From contig NZ_SZZN01000001.1 of NCBI RefSeq assembly GCF_006125015.1, positions 2,418,001-2,482,000 of the forward strand: a stretch of 64,000 bases of DNA. The letters are read 5' to 3'. Position 1 is the stretch's first letter; each line of letters begins with the position of its first letter. The notes below the pieces were generated by a model, which saw only the letters and a program-made list of their open reading frames with translations, made no database searches and had not been told where the DNA came from. Both the position numbers and the translations under genes were made by a program. Shown here one piece after another: positions 51,767 through 56,424 of the stretch. The DNA is from Roseovarius arcticus. Its GTDB lineage: Bacteria; Pseudomonadota; Alphaproteobacteria; Rhodobacterales; Rhodobacteraceae.

Positions 51767-53506
51767 TTATTTTTCGGTAAATTTCAGCTCGATCCGCCGG
51801 TTCTGCGCACGCGCCTCGGGGCTGCTGCCACTCGCAATTGGCTGATACTGGCCAAAGCCGTTTGCGGCCAAGCGATCTGGTGGCAGGCCCAGAAAATCAA
51901 TCATATAACGCACGACCGACAGCGCCCGCGCTTGGCTAAGCTCCCAATTGTCGGCAAAAGCGGCCGAGCCGACGATCGGCACGTCATCGGTATGCCCGTC
52001 AACGCGGATCACCCAATCGATTTCGTCGGGGATATCACCCACAATCTTGCGCAAGATCTCAGCCACCTTTGCAATCTCGTTCTTACCAGTGCTCGACAGT
52101 GTTGCCTGTCCCGGCTCAAACAGCACCTCGGAGCTAAAGACGAAGCGATCGCCCACGATCCGCACGCCCTCCTGATTACCAAGCAAGTCGCGCATCCGCC
52201 CAAAAAAATCTGAGCGGTACTTTTCAAGGTCCTGCTTTTCAGCCTCAAGCAACTTGTTCTTATCTTCCTCAGCCTGTCTACGGCGCTTTTCCTCGGCGGC
52301 GACGCGGGCCAATGCGGCGTTCAAATCTTGCCCCAGCGACTGCATCTGCACGTCGCTGGCGGCCTCGCGCGCCTTGGAATCGTCCAGCAGCGCCTGCAAC
52401 TGACCCAGTTGATCGCGCAATGCGGCGACTTGTTGGTTCAGAACCTCCTGCGCGCGCTCGGCCTTTTCGGTCTTGGCGGTCTGTGTGCTCAGCGATTTGC
52501 GTGCCTCACTCAGGAGGGCCGCGCGCTCTTCTGCGGCGGTCATCTGGGTGTTTGCCGCGTCCTCCGCGGCCAGTTTAGCGGCGAGGGCGGCAGCCAGCTT
52601 GGCGCGTACATCTGCTTCGGTCAGTTGCTGCTCCGCCTTGACGGCGGCCAGCGCGGCCTCCAAAGCCGCGATTTCGTCCCCGTCACTCTGCTGATTGACA
52701 AGGGCGGCCGCCAATTCGGCCTCCAGATCGTCGCTGCCTTGGCGCGCTGCTGCCAACAGGGTCAGCGTCTCTTCCGCGCGGCGACGCTGCTCTTCGAGCG
52801 CGAGGGTCATGGCGGTTAGTTCCGACTGCGAATTCGACAACTTTTCGCGGAGCGCCTCGGCAGCAGCGGCTTGGGCGAGGCGTGCGGCCTCGGCATCGTT
52901 CAGTTGCGTTTCCCTCTCGCCCGCCTCGGCGCGCAGGTCGGCGGCTAGCGCCTCCAGGGCATCACGCTGCGCCGCTGCTAATCGCGCGGCCTCGGCCTCG
53001 GCGTCCACCTCATCGCGCAGACCTGCCAACGCCAGCTGCAGCGCCTCTTTTTCCGACAGAAGCGTATCGCGCGCATCCTCCAGATCGCGGGCCTGCCCAA
53101 GCGCAGTATCGCGTTCGGCTAAAAGGCCCGCGACCTGCTGCTCAAAGCTGGCGATGCGGGCATCTGCGGCGGCGTTATCGGCGGTCAGCGAGGAAATTAA
53201 AGCCGTCTGCTCTTCTTGCCGCTGGCGCGCGTTGGTCAACGTCGTGGTTAACGCGCCGACGCGCTCCTCCAGCGTGGCGCTTCGGTCCTGCTCCATACCC
53301 AGCGCGCGGGACAGCGCAGCGACCTCGGCCGACAGCGTATCCAATTCGGTCTCTTGGCCGGTAATCGTCTCGCGAAGCGAAAATTGCACGACCATAAAGA
53401 TCGTCAGGACAAACATCAGGACCAGCAACAGGCCTGTCATCGCGTCAACAAAGCCCGGCCAGATCGAGGCCTGAAAGCGGTGCCCGGTGCGGCGCGACAG
53501 AGCCAT
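51767..53506 (-). CDS. MotB/ZorB-like protein with long coiled coil and OmpA domain
   Basis: This 579-residue protein has one N-terminal membrane helix (about 19-43, FVDAMTGLLLVLMFVLTIFM) with an aspartate, Asp21, at the place of the ion-binding aspartate of MotB and ZorB. About 380 residues of alanine/glutamate-rich coiled coil follow (50-440). The C-terminal OmpA-like peptidoglycan-binding domain (448-579) has VDGHTDDVP, NWELSQARALSVV and QNRRIELKF. It probably spans the periplasm and grips the wall. It pairs with the MotA/ZorA-like gene three bases upstream. It is not flagellar MotB; its coiled coil is far longer. Confidence 0.85.
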   Translation of the reverse strand: MALSRRTGHRFQASIWPGFVDAMTGLLLVLMFVLTIFMVVQFSLRETITGQETELDTLSAEVAALSRALGMEQDRSATLEERVGALTTTLTNARQRQEEQTALISSLTADNAAADARIASFEQQVAGLLAERDTALGQARDLEDARDTLLSEKEALQLALAGLRDEVDAEAEAARLAAAQRDALEALAADLRAEAGERETQLNDAEAARLAQAAAAEALREKLSNSQSELTAMTLALEEQRRRAEETLTLLAAARQGSDDLEAELAAALVNQQSDGDEIAALEAALAAVKAEQQLTEADVRAKLAAALAAKLAAEDAANTQMTAAEERAALLSEARKSLSTQTAKTEKAERAQEVLNQQVAALRDQLGQLQALLDDSKAREAASDVQMQSLGQDLNAALARVAAEEKRRRQAEEDKNKLLEAEKQDLEKYRSDFFGRMRDLLGNQEGVRIVGDRFVFSSEVLFEPGQATLSSTGKNEIAKVAEILRKIVGDIPDEIDWVIRVDGHTDDVPIVGSAAFADNWELSQARALSVVRYMIDFLGLPPDRLAANGFGQYQPIASGSSPEARAQNRRIELKFTEK

Positions 53507-53509
53507 GGC

Positions 53510-54742
53510 CTAGCCCTCCTGCTCCGAAGGATCGCCGCCGCCAGTCGCGATACCGGGCGCCGCACGATAGCTGCGCCGGGCGACGCGCCCACCATGTATT
53601 GCGGCCTTCAGCCCAGCTAGATCGGTACGCAGTTCGCTCATGCTTTCCTGTCTGCCGGCGCTGATTTCCTCAAGGATGCGCAACATCTGCACGTCGATGG
53701 AGCGCAGGCGCATGCGGCTTTCGGCGTCCAGCCCGGTGTCTTGAGCAGGTGCCGCGCGCGCCTCAAGCGCGTCGATCAGACGCTCCTGCCCGTCGGCGAC
53801 GCGGCCCAGCGCGGCGGCGTTGCTGCCATCGTCGTGCATCCCGTCAGCCAGCCGCCCGACAGCTCCCGCCAGTGCCACCATCTGCTCATCCGCCGCCGCG
53901 CGGCTGATGTCCGATTGTGTCAGCATTTGTTGCAAGGATTCCATCTGCTCGGTCATCTGGTCGATGATGCCAGTTAGCAGCGCCTGTTCGGTGCTACCCT
54001 CGTCAGCACTGGCAAATCCGACGCGCGTAATGGTAGACATCCACTCTTCCAGCTCGCGGTAGAACCGGTTCTGACCATGGCCGGCGAACAGCTCCAACAG
54101 GCCCACAATCAGTGACCCAGCCAGACCAAGGAGCGACGAGGCAAAGGCGACGCCCATCCCGCCCAATTGGGACTGAAGGCCCGTCATGAGGCGGGTAAAT
54201 ACCTCGGTGCCGGCCTCACCCTCTTGCGGGGCAAGCCCCTTGATCGTCTCGACGAGCGCCGGAACAGTCGTGGCAAGGCCATAGAACGTGCCCAAAAGTC
54301 CCAAGAAAATCAGCACGTTGACGATATAGCGCGTAATCTCGCGCGCCTCGTCGATGCGCTGCGCAACCATATCCTGGATTGAGCGGGCCGACGATTGCGA
54401 GATCTGCATCCGCGTCCCGCGCTGGCGCAAGAGAGTGGCAATAGGTCCCAGCAATAGCGGCGGCTTGGTCGCCTCATCACCCGGACGCTCTCCTGCGAAA
54501 CTCTCAAGCCAGCGGACCGAGCCGATAAGCTGGAACACCTGCCAGAAACACGCCACAACGCCGATCAAAAAGACGAAGAAGATAAAGCCGTTTAGGTAAG
54601 GATTGGCCTGAAATACAGGCAGGACACGCGGCAGCGCCATGAAGGCACCGAAGGCCGCAAGGCCCAGCACCGAGAACATGATGACGATCTGCCGCCACGG
54701 CTGCGAAAAATGCGTGTTGACCTCGCGGTCCGGCTGCCCCAT
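53510..54742 (-). CDS. MotA/TolQ/ExbB-type ion channel protein (ZorA-like)
   Basis: This 410-residue inner membrane protein has four membrane helices (about 18-40, 50-75, 139-165, 192-220). The conserved proton-channel core is present: NVLIFLGLLGTFYGLATTVPALV and GGMGVAFASSLLGLAGSLIVG. A long cytosolic tail (221-410) is mostly helical. The start MGQPDREVN has GGGAG eight bases upstream. Partnered with the MotB-like gene, it should form a 5:2 ion-driven motor. The target of the motor is unknown. The closest described relatives by layout are ZorA and TolQ, not flagellar MotA. Confidence 0.85.
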   Translation of the reverse strand: MGQPDREVNTHFSQPWRQIVIMFSVLGLAAFGAFMALPRVLPVFQANPYLNGFIFFVFLIGVVACFWQVFQLIGSVRWLESFAGERPGDEATKPPLLLGPIATLLRQRGTRMQISQSSARSIQDMVAQRIDEAREITRYIVNVLIFLGLLGTFYGLATTVPALVETIKGLAPQEGEAGTEVFTRLMTGLQSQLGGMGVAFASSLLGLAGSLIVGLLELFAGHGQNRFYRELEEWMSTITRVGFASADEGSTEQALLTGIIDQMTEQMESLQQMLTQSDISRAAADEQMVALAGAVGRLADGMHDDGSNAAALGRVADGQERLIDALEARAAPAQDTGLDAESRMRLRSIDVQMLRILEEISAGRQESMSELRTDLAGLKAAIHGGRVARRSYRAAPGIATGGGDPSEQEG

Positions 54743-54809: not shown

Positions 54810-55340
54810 TTAAGCGCATAGTCTCCGTACGCGACCGGACAGCCATTCCAGGTCACTATCGGCGATGCCCAATTGGGCCAAATGGTCGGCTGTGTTGTAG
54901 AGGTATTCGGTATTCGGGCCAAGCCCGCCGATGGCATGCGCAATGATGCGGGCCTGCTCTTCTAGTGGCAATCCACCGCAATACTGCACATGATGCGGAT
55001 CAATCACGTAGGTCACTGCGCGCACGTTGCGCCCGTCGTCCAGCCGGATGTCCAGATCCCGCTCCAGATACGCCGATGAGATCAGTTCCCGCTCGCGCAG
55101 GTATTCCAGCGTCTCGGCCTCCTTCCCGCCTGCAACGGCAAGCGCGACGCCTTGGCAACTGGCCGTTTGACTCTCATCAAGCGCCAGCACGAGGCCCGGC
55201 GCCTTGCTCGTGCCGCGATGGTGGATCGAGCGCATGCAAAAGCTGCGCGCGTAGCCCGGTAGAGTCGCGATCATCTGGTGCGATACTTCAAAACCGGGGT
55301 TCCAAACCAGCGAGCCGTAGCCGAATACCCACATCGTCAT
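54810..55340 (-). CDS. ChaC-type gamma-glutamylcyclotransferase
   Basis: This 176-residue enzyme splits glutathione (or gamma-glutamyl peptides) to 5-oxoproline and the rest. The family motif WVFGYGSLVWNPGF is at the N terminus, with RSFCMRSIHHRGTSKAPGLVLAL next and the catalytic-glutamate region YLRERELISSAYLER in the middle. It is 67 bases upstream of the motor genes on the same strand, so co-transcription is possible. It is divergent from the DUF2125 gene. Confidence 0.92.
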   Translation of the reverse strand: MTMWVFGYGSLVWNPGFEVSHQMIATLPGYARSFCMRSIHHRGTSKAPGLVLALDESQTASCQGVALAVAGGKEAETLEYLRERELISSAYLERDLDIRLDDGRNVRAVTYVIDPHHVQYCGGLPLEEQARIIAHAIGGLGPNTEYLYNTADHLAQLGIADSDLEWLSGRVRRLCA

Positions 55341-55407
55341 AGTTCTGTTCCTCACGCCGTTTCGCCCTATAAACACGATTGTGGGCGGTCGCGAAAGGGT
55401 TTGGATC

Positions 55408-56424
55408 ATGCGAATATTGCTGGCAATCTGTCTGGCGCTGGCGGCGGCATGGGCTGGGTATTGGTTCATTGGGTCCACGGCGGTCAAATCCGGCATCACG
55501 GCATGGTTTGACGCGCGGCAATCCGAAGGGTGGCTGGCGGAGTATTCGGATCTATCGGTGCAAGGCTTTCCCAGCCGGTTCGATACCACGCTTACCGATC
55601 TAAGACTGTCGGACCCCGTATCTGGACTTGGCTGGGAGGCACCTTTTTTCCAATTACTGACGCTGAGCTATACGCCCAATCACGTCATCGCCGTTTGGCC
55701 GCATGAGCAGCGCATCACCAGCCCGGAAGGCACCTATACGTTGGCCAGCCGCGACATGCGTGCGTCGCTGGTGGTTGAGGCCAGCACCGCGGTGGCGCTC
55801 AAACGCGCGACCATGACAGCCGAGGGTCTCGCATGGACGCCAGAGGCAGGCGGCGACGCCGCCGCAGTCGAAGCGTTGCGGCTCGCGGCCGAACGGTTGG
55901 ACGATGCCCCGGACACCGGCGACGCGCGCTATCATCTGGGGCTCGCGGCCGAAGGTGTGGCACCGGCCGCAAGTCGCCTCGCGCTGGTCGACCCCGAGGG
56001 CACCCTGCCCCGCGTGCTCGACACGCTCAACGCCGATATCACGGTAGATTTCAGCGCCCCATGGGACCGTTTAGCGATCGAGAACGCCCGCCCGCAACCA
56101 ACCCATATTGAAATGAAGCGCGTCGCAGCATCCTGGGGCGTTATGACCCTGGAGGGGTCCGGCACACTGGATGTCGACCCGCAAGGATTTCCCACTGGCA
56201 CTATTACTGTCAAGGCACGCAACTGGCGCGAAATGCTGGCGCTGGCCGAGCGCGCAGGCGCGCTGACACCAGATGCGGCCACGATGGCCGAAAACGCATT
56301 GGGCCTGGTCGCGAGCGGTTCGGGTAATGGCAAGACGTTGGAAGTACCGCTACGGTTTGAAGGTGGACGGATATGGCTTGGCCCGCTGCCTATCGGAGAC
56401 GCGCCGATTTTGCGGTTGCAGTAG
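55408..56424 (+). CDS. DUF2125 protein, membrane anchored
   Basis: This 338-residue protein has an N-terminal membrane anchor or signal (MRILLAICLALAAAWAGYWFIG). The rest is beta-rich with the DUF2125 pattern (SDLSVQGFPSRFDTTLTDLRLSDP and SYTPNHVIAVWPHEQ). It is probably periplasmic. Function is unknown; the layout recalls AsmA-like lipid-transfer proteins, but that is a guess. It is convergent with the extensin gene (3-base gap). Confidence 0.8.
   Translation: MRILLAICLALAAAWAGYWFIGSTAVKSGITAWFDARQSEGWLAEYSDLSVQGFPSRFDTTLTDLRLSDPVSGLGWEAPFFQLLTLSYTPNHVIAVWPHEQRITSPEGTYTLASRDMRASLVVEASTAVALKRATMTAEGLAWTPEAGGDAAAVEALRLAAERLDDAPDTGDARYHLGLAAEGVAPAASRLALVDPEGTLPRVLDTLNADITVDFSAPWDRLAIENARPQPTHIEMKRVAASWGVMTLEGSGTLDVDPQGFPTGTITVKARNWREMLALAERAGALTPDAATMAENALGLVASGSGNGKTLEVPLRFEGGRIWLGPLPIGDAPILRLQ

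Follow-up and report, generated by a model that had tools for sequence, protein, structure and literature searches.

Ion-driven motors to which a task has been assigned are few and comprise the flagellar, Tol, Ton, gliding/type 9 secretion and Zorya motors. The described systems closest to the one analyzed here are the flagellar stator MotAB, in which a four-helix A subunit is paired with a one-helix B subunit carrying an Asp and an OmpA domain, the energizers TolQR/ExbBD, and ZorAB of the Zorya anti-phage system. A role for ZorAB in sensing the cell wall is proposed in the available part of one report (PMC11890865), and excerpts from a survey describe the B subunits of nonflagellar ('GIT') motors as lacking an OmpA-type domain (PMC12505986). 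Here, we examine a gene pair located in a 64,000-nucleotide stretch of the Roseovarius arcticus genome (contig NZ_SZZN01000001.1, positions 2,418,001 to 2,482,000; below, the window), which codes for a MotA/TolQ/ExbB-like channel subunit, referred to as A, and a MotB-like partner, referred to as B.

We describe the gene pair, its architecture, its conserved residues, the coiled coil of B, the separate clade formed by A, the spread of the family and the heptad quantization of coil length. The two proteins very probably form an ion-driven motor of the inner membrane of the 5:2 type. Motors of this kind are known, but the family branches off separately, and no assigned task was found for it in the open-access literature. 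Its unusual part is an overlong wall rod of quantized length.

Results

Gene A (53510..54742, minus strand) encodes a protein of 410 amino acids and begins at the start codon common to its close relatives (54742). Gene B (51767..53506, minus strand), which encodes 579 amino acids, follows after three bases, and both genes lie where a first-pass annotation of this DNA had placed them. That annotation had described A as a four-helix channel with a tail of 190 residues, and we indeed find hydrophobic helices at about residues 19 to 37, 52 to 70, 140 to 158 and 198 to 216, followed by a C-terminal cytosolic tail of about 194 residues (residues 217 to 410; 53513..54094, minus strand). An AlphaFold2 model of the A monomer (mean pLDDT, 79.7; pTM, 0.58) agrees with four helices and a tail, the latter predicted to be helical. 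B has a single hydrophobic helix at residues 22 to 40 with Asp21, the predicted ion carrier, at its start (motif IWPGFVDA; codon 53444..53446, minus strand). This is followed by a periplasmic coiled coil at about residues 46 to 447 (52166..53371, minus strand), with no proline between residues 46 and 440, and by an OmpA-type peptidoglycan-binding domain at residues 462 to 570 (51797..52123, minus strand; PF00691; E value, 2e-18), as had likewise been claimed. In the AlphaFold2 model of B (pLDDT, 73.4; pTM, 0.33), helices span residues 18 to 165, 176 to 291 and 297 to 442.

The residues expected of a motor are conserved. Asp21 is invariant in all 29 aligned B proteins, and a looser scan for the Asp motif matched 110 of 116 B proteins, the remaining six being three with a variant motif that still has the Asp and three that we judged to be wrong-frame reads. 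Thr152 in helix 3 of A (GLLGTF; codon 54287..54289, minus strand) and Ser203 in helix 4 (AFASSLLGL; codon 54134..54136, minus strand) are invariant in 26/26 aligned A proteins and, by our own reading of the alignment, stand opposite the helix 3 Thr and the helix 4 Thr of TolQ/ExbB, respectively. The signature of 5:2 rotary motors, an Asp in the B helix together with Thr/Ser in helices 3 and 4 of A, is thus present. The OmpA domain residues GHTD, NW..S..R and NRR of B are also invariant (29/29), and the residues invariant in all 26 A proteins include Asp350, Glu358, Arg364 and Arg372 of the tail. Because invariant residues lie there, the tail may contact a partner in the cytosol. At two loci, L180 and L190, A proteins of 267 and 258 amino acids are encoded without the tail, with the B partner kept.

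The coiled coil of B, for which about 380 residues had been claimed, was found to cover about 395 to 400 residues and has a strong heptad signal: its hydrophobic periodicity peaks at 3.51 residues, with a power of 4.5 versus a mean of 0.73 (standard deviation, 0.23) and a maximum of 2.3 in 500 shuffles. For comparison across the family, coil length was counted from the membrane Asp to where the OmpA domain begins, membrane helix included. It was measured in 172 of 191 loci, the other 19 lying at contig ends or having anchors that were not recognized. By this measure, the window's coil has 431 residues, and lengths range from 287 to 1009 residues in 100 Rhodobacteraceae and from 182 to 663 residues in 72 others. 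The 172 coils contain 5 prolines in 66,846 residues (167 are proline free), and in every one of these B proteins the periodicity peak is higher than in any of 40 shuffles; the median period is 3.50. Of 62 Rhodobacteraceae B proteins that were read cleanly, six are more than 1000 residues long in total, the longest having 1157.

Coil lengths are quantized in heptads. Among 108 distinct lengths, 47 are multiples of 7, 25 fall in class 4 modulo 7 (that of the window's B) and 19 fall in class 3, so that these three classes hold 91 lengths versus 46 expected (chi-square P value, 3e-20); moduli of 5, 6, 8, 9 and 11 gave flat distributions. Classes 3 and 4 correspond to one stammer or stutter in a coiled coil. 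Since relatedness may inflate such classes, nearest relatives were paired, leaving out pairs of equal length (8 of 50 in Rhodobacteraceae and 9 of 36 in others). The length difference was a multiple of 7 in 16/42 Rhodobacteraceae pairs (P value, 1e-4) and in 16/27 other pairs (P value, 8e-8). Multiples of 5, 6, 8 and 9 occurred about as often as expected by chance or less often. A smaller first test on 52 sequences had given a weak signal (7/24; P value, 0.046). Rhodobacteraceae coils of more than 600 residues (26 coils) contain internal repeats of 28 and 21 residues, and for this reason the long coils of this family seem to have grown by duplication of whole heptads. No 28-residue repeat stands out in the window's coil. 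Clear repeats of 28 residues, or four heptads, are seen in the coil of locus L113.

Given the near-absence of proline and the heptad-quantized length, the simplest reading is that B is probably one continuous, parallel rod that is kept in register. A coiled coil rises 0.15 nm per residue, and the periplasm is some 20 nm deep. The window's rod would be about 60 nm long and thus probably too long to stand upright in the periplasm unless it is folded. We also tested indirectly for a hairpin, in which paired arms would favor even heptad counts; the 47 lengths that are multiples of 7 comprise 24 even and 23 odd counts and lend it no support.

The pair already has a name in part. Over its full length, B belongs to NCBIfam NF006542 (PRK09039.1-1, 'peptidoglycan-binding protein'; 795.7 bits; cutoff, 388), and three other loci encode B proteins that score above the NF006543 cutoff, two of them also above that of NF006545. 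The PRK09039 entries (NF006542 to NF006546) provide a family name only, with no function, partner or mechanism stated. A passes no family cutoff in Pfam and NCBIfam scans, scoring 14.1 bits against MotA_ExbB (PF01618; gathering cutoff, 22.9) and 17 bits against NCBIfam ZorA (E value, 0.0022; cutoff, 500). In a Sinorhizobium meliloti record, the pair is annotated as 'MotA/TolQ/ExbB proton channel family protein' and 'peptidoglycan-binding protein' and stands after genes for thiamine phosphate synthase, a sel1-repeat protein and inositol monophosphatase. A sequence search of solved structures gave no match for A alone and only chance coiled coils for an A profile. A Foldseek search of the A model against solved folds matched TolQ and ExbB best, though weakly (best E value, 2.5e-3; none at or below 0.001), with ZorA and PomA ranked lower.

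In a tree of 68 A-type proteins (246 columns; calculated with a long-branch warning and with ZorA types I and II left out), the A family forms one clade (support, 90/95; not starred), which is placed within a larger clade (99/93) that also holds ZorA type III and two distant proteins. Flagellar MotA (100/99) and TolQ/ExbB (94/83) fall apart from it. A related A-type protein of 444 amino acids (L181:9223-10557, plus strand) sits on a long branch and is not followed by an OmpA-type B.

The family is widespread. Of 385 alphaproteobacterial genomes, 250 gave a match to A (214 of the 315 genomes of good quality). Most of these genomes have a single match, and A is kept in some genomes of about 0.7 to 0.9 Mb. 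In a phylum-wide sample, the A profile matched 126/398 genomes; among the matches listed, strong ones outside the Alphaproteobacteria came from six genomes of three families (E values, 2e-95 to 4e-135). Six weaker matches that we inspected (E values, 7e-16 to 3e-12) all have ZorA-like lengths of 675 to 958 amino acids, and the five of them scanned with PADLOC are all ZorA type III. Of 130 loci with A, 125 have B downstream on the same strand, and the remaining five are cut off by a contig end; in 123 of the 125 the gap is within 60 bases.

In the window, clpA lies downstream of the pair on the opposite strand, and upstream there are, in order, a ChaC-like gene (54810..55589, minus strand; start codon uncertain), a DUF2125 gene, an extensin-like protein gene, tyrA and hisC. 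This syntenic ChaC-like gene precedes A on the same strand in 83/85 Rhodobacteraceae loci, the two exceptions being L117, whose A gene begins right at a contig end, and L151. It precedes A in 0/36 other alphaproteobacterial loci. Outside Rhodobacteraceae, where neighbors were clustered for 40 loci (8 dropped since A was not called; names partly our own reading), the recurrent upstream genes are efp (18 loci), an inositol monophosphatase gene (16 loci) and a gene for a secreted OmpA domain protein, here referred to as C (21 loci). Neighbors are conserved over large groups, unlike those of genomic islands, and the pair is probably inherited vertically for the most part. No neighbor cluster common to at least four loci looked flagellar or tol-pal when judged by eye, with no profile test; to this extent, the first-pass view of a stand-alone pair is supported. 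Around the window's pair, 8 neighbors scanned with Pfam and NCBIfam and 10 scanned with PADLOC included no ZorC/D/E/G, flagellar or Tol gene. The earlier statement that such partners are absent holds for the neighbors scanned, but a tol-pal-type cluster is found elsewhere in this genome.

By sequence and in the tree alike, no named protein is closer to A than ZorA, which speaks for a Zorya-type anti-phage system without effectors. The two systems also have in common a cytosolic A tail, an OmpA-type B and the conserved Asp. We nevertheless consider a Zorya-type system very improbable. Against the PADLOC Zor models, for which no cutoff is given, the best scores are 35.5 bits for A and 86.3 bits for B, whereas five true ZorA proteins score 815 to 1509 bits and one ZorB 375.8 bits. 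No Zor effector model matched any of 10 window neighbors at an E value of 0.01, while ZorG stood beside ZorA in three of four control loci whose upstream gene was scanned. Zorya is further set apart by its short ZorB and the very long tail of ZorA: ZorA has 675 to 958 amino acids in six Zorya-like loci and ZorB 214 to 225 in five of them (the sixth, of 444 amino acids, overlaps A and probably has a wrong start), whereas in ten loci of the family described here A has 258 to 435 and B 337 to 387 amino acids. These proportions are reversed, and the lengths are longer still in Rhodobacteraceae, the window's family. Together with the separate clade of A, its spread, mostly in one copy, and the conserved neighbors, these data do not bear out the 'ZorAB' label and the defense task that had been proposed.

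The secreted protein C raises the question of a Tol/Ton-like energizer, in which the motor would drive a separate periplasmic transducer, C being the candidate, and the coil of B would be a mere stalk. C has a signal peptide, followed by a conserved VxVNxxAL-like motif, and a Pro/Ala-rich linker that leads to a C-terminal OmpA domain (e.g., L066:10264-11454, minus strand). When searched with a profile built from 16 of the same loci, it was found to precede A at 32 of 46 loci from outside Rhodobacteraceae, four of which come from outside the class, and the weak fold matches of A to TolQ and ExbB point in the same direction. A also has the channel motif in common with these proteins. However, none of 79 Rhodobacteraceae loci was found to have C upstream of A, and a search of the window's genome gave no convincing C (best E value, 0.03). 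By our reading, C has no TolA/TonB-like membrane anchor beyond its signal peptide. B is OmpA type rather than ExbD/TolR type, matching OmpA and giving no match to ExbD models up to an E value of 1. TolQ/ExbB form a separate clade, and the genome's own tol-pal-type cluster contains TolQ-, TolR-, TolB-, OmpA/Pal- and TPR-type genes (the gene in the tolA position has no Pfam match). We therefore regard an energizer of this type as unlikely.

A flagellar stator would account for the overall MotAB layout of the pair, and the genome has a FliG-like gene. However, A lacks the MotA N-terminal domain, and in the tree flagellar MotA is a starred clade of its own. A search for this domain (PF20560) at an E value of 0.001 gave no match in the window's genome, whereas 4/14 control genomes were matched, and FlhA is also absent from the window's genome. 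Nor does the pair follow flagella: FlhA is present in 22 of 27 Rhodobacteraceae genomes, yet all five genomes without FlhA have A and one genome with FlhA lacks it. Among 16 genomes of the class covered by both searches, A occurs with the MotA N-terminal domain in seven and without it in six, and it is absent from three, two of which have the domain. That the pair is a flagellar stator is accordingly extremely improbable.

The FliG-like gene (L310:27-878, plus strand; G000:C1:2886027-2886878) lies outside the window, next to genes that we read as aconitase like and heme exporter like. It scores 84.9 bits against FliG_C and 98.8 bits against NCBIfam fliG (cutoff, 226.7). In five Rhodobacteraceae examined, two of them without FlhA, this gene is the only FliG match (46 to 58% identity in the other four). 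We considered its product as a rotor for the pair, but since nearly all the listed matches outside Rhodobacteraceae are weak (E values above 1e-20; one exception of 4.5e-28) and look flagellar, it is an unlikely partner of a class-wide pair.

Discussion

Architecture, motifs and coil support the view that the pair is a MotAB-like ion motor that stands alone, is anchored to the wall and has an unusually long coil. By analogy with homologous families, A and B would assemble into a 5:2-type motor of the inner membrane, ions would enter past Asp21 of B and Thr152/Ser203 of A, and, as in MotAB and ZorAB, they would turn the A ring around the B dimer. B would form one continuous, parallel, in-register coiled coil that starts at the membrane, and its OmpA domains would, as in related proteins, grip the peptidoglycan. 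Torque would pass into the A ring, the cytosolic tail and the rod. Since its length far exceeds the depth of the periplasm, the rod might lie along the wall and tether the motor to peptidoglycan tens of nanometers away. A stronger version of this idea, in which a single, torsionally continuous rod of about 27 to 150 nm (182 to 1009 residues) lies in the plane of the wall and transmits or stores torque, appears doubtful to us. If it were true, the rod would at the upper end measure several times the depth of the periplasm, a rope whose length is free to evolve mostly in whole heptads, and the heptad length rule bears on whether such a motor needs a torsionally continuous anchor.

Alternatively, the rod might gauge the distance between membrane and wall, or strain, with an ion leak or a signal through the A tail as the output and no useful rotation. 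The conserved C-terminal motif of A would fit such a mechanosensor or gated channel, as would a coil that varies in length but keeps its register and the wall sensing proposed, in the part of the report available, for ZorAB (PMC11890865). On the other hand, the invariant Asp/Thr/Ser set is that of motors, and some relatives of A are without the tail. In our view, this makes the sensor rather improbable.

The only phenotypes that were found come from the alphaproteobacterium Komagataeibacter hansenii, which has no flagella. According to the available parts of two reports (PMC6570709, PMC6315621), this species has adjacent genes named 'motA' (348 amino acids, four helices) and 'motB' (321 amino acids, OmpA), whose overexpression lengthened the cells and left them in chains, increased colony spreading and changed the cellulose, and green fluorescent protein (GFP) fusions to the Mot proteins were polar. 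Its B is shorter than that of the window; among its tabulated matches, the one in Rhizobium gallicum has 46% identity over 98%, and other tabulated matches are named flagellar Mot proteins. Judged by sizes, adjacency and this one table match, the two genes are probably orthologues of A and B. Passage searches of Agrobacterium, Sinorhizobium and Rhodobacter papers for the pair found nothing.

In view of the K. hansenii data, the wide conservation and the wall-binding domain, the role that fits the pair best is that of an envelope motor acting at the pole or division site. We consider the envelope role likely and the pole or division site role tentative, somewhat short of an even chance. A role in division is not specifically indicated, because overexpression also altered colony spreading and cellulose and the shape of Escherichia coli was unaffected. 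The evidence for such a role, like that for a rod lying flat, is indirect and weak. Taken as a whole, the picture of a widespread envelope motor with a long, wall-anchored rod and a role in constriction or maintenance seems to us somewhat favored.

Several observations weigh against this picture. No match to A was found in 135 of the 385 genomes of the class, and none of 14 control genomes, including that of Caulobacter vibrioides, passes the cutoff of the related B model NF006543; in light of these holes in its spread, the system cannot be one that every member needs. Some relatives of A have no cytosolic tail. The B model has low-confidence helix breaks at residues 166 to 176 and 293 to 304, and the heptad signal is weaker near them, and hence a folded-back rod is possible. 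The K. hansenii phenotypes, as described in the available parts of the reports, stem from overexpression only, and overexpression in E. coli left cell shape unchanged (PMC6570709). Finally, a search of the open-access literature, supplementary files excluded, found no loss-of-function phenotype.

The vague names carried by its parts may explain why this branch of motors has been overlooked. B has an OmpA domain, and the family does not fit the rule given for GIT motors in the survey excerpts (PMC12505986). If our reading is true, a further branch of ion-driven motors, present in 250 of 385 alphaproteobacterial genomes, would be a basic machine of the envelope in these bacteria.

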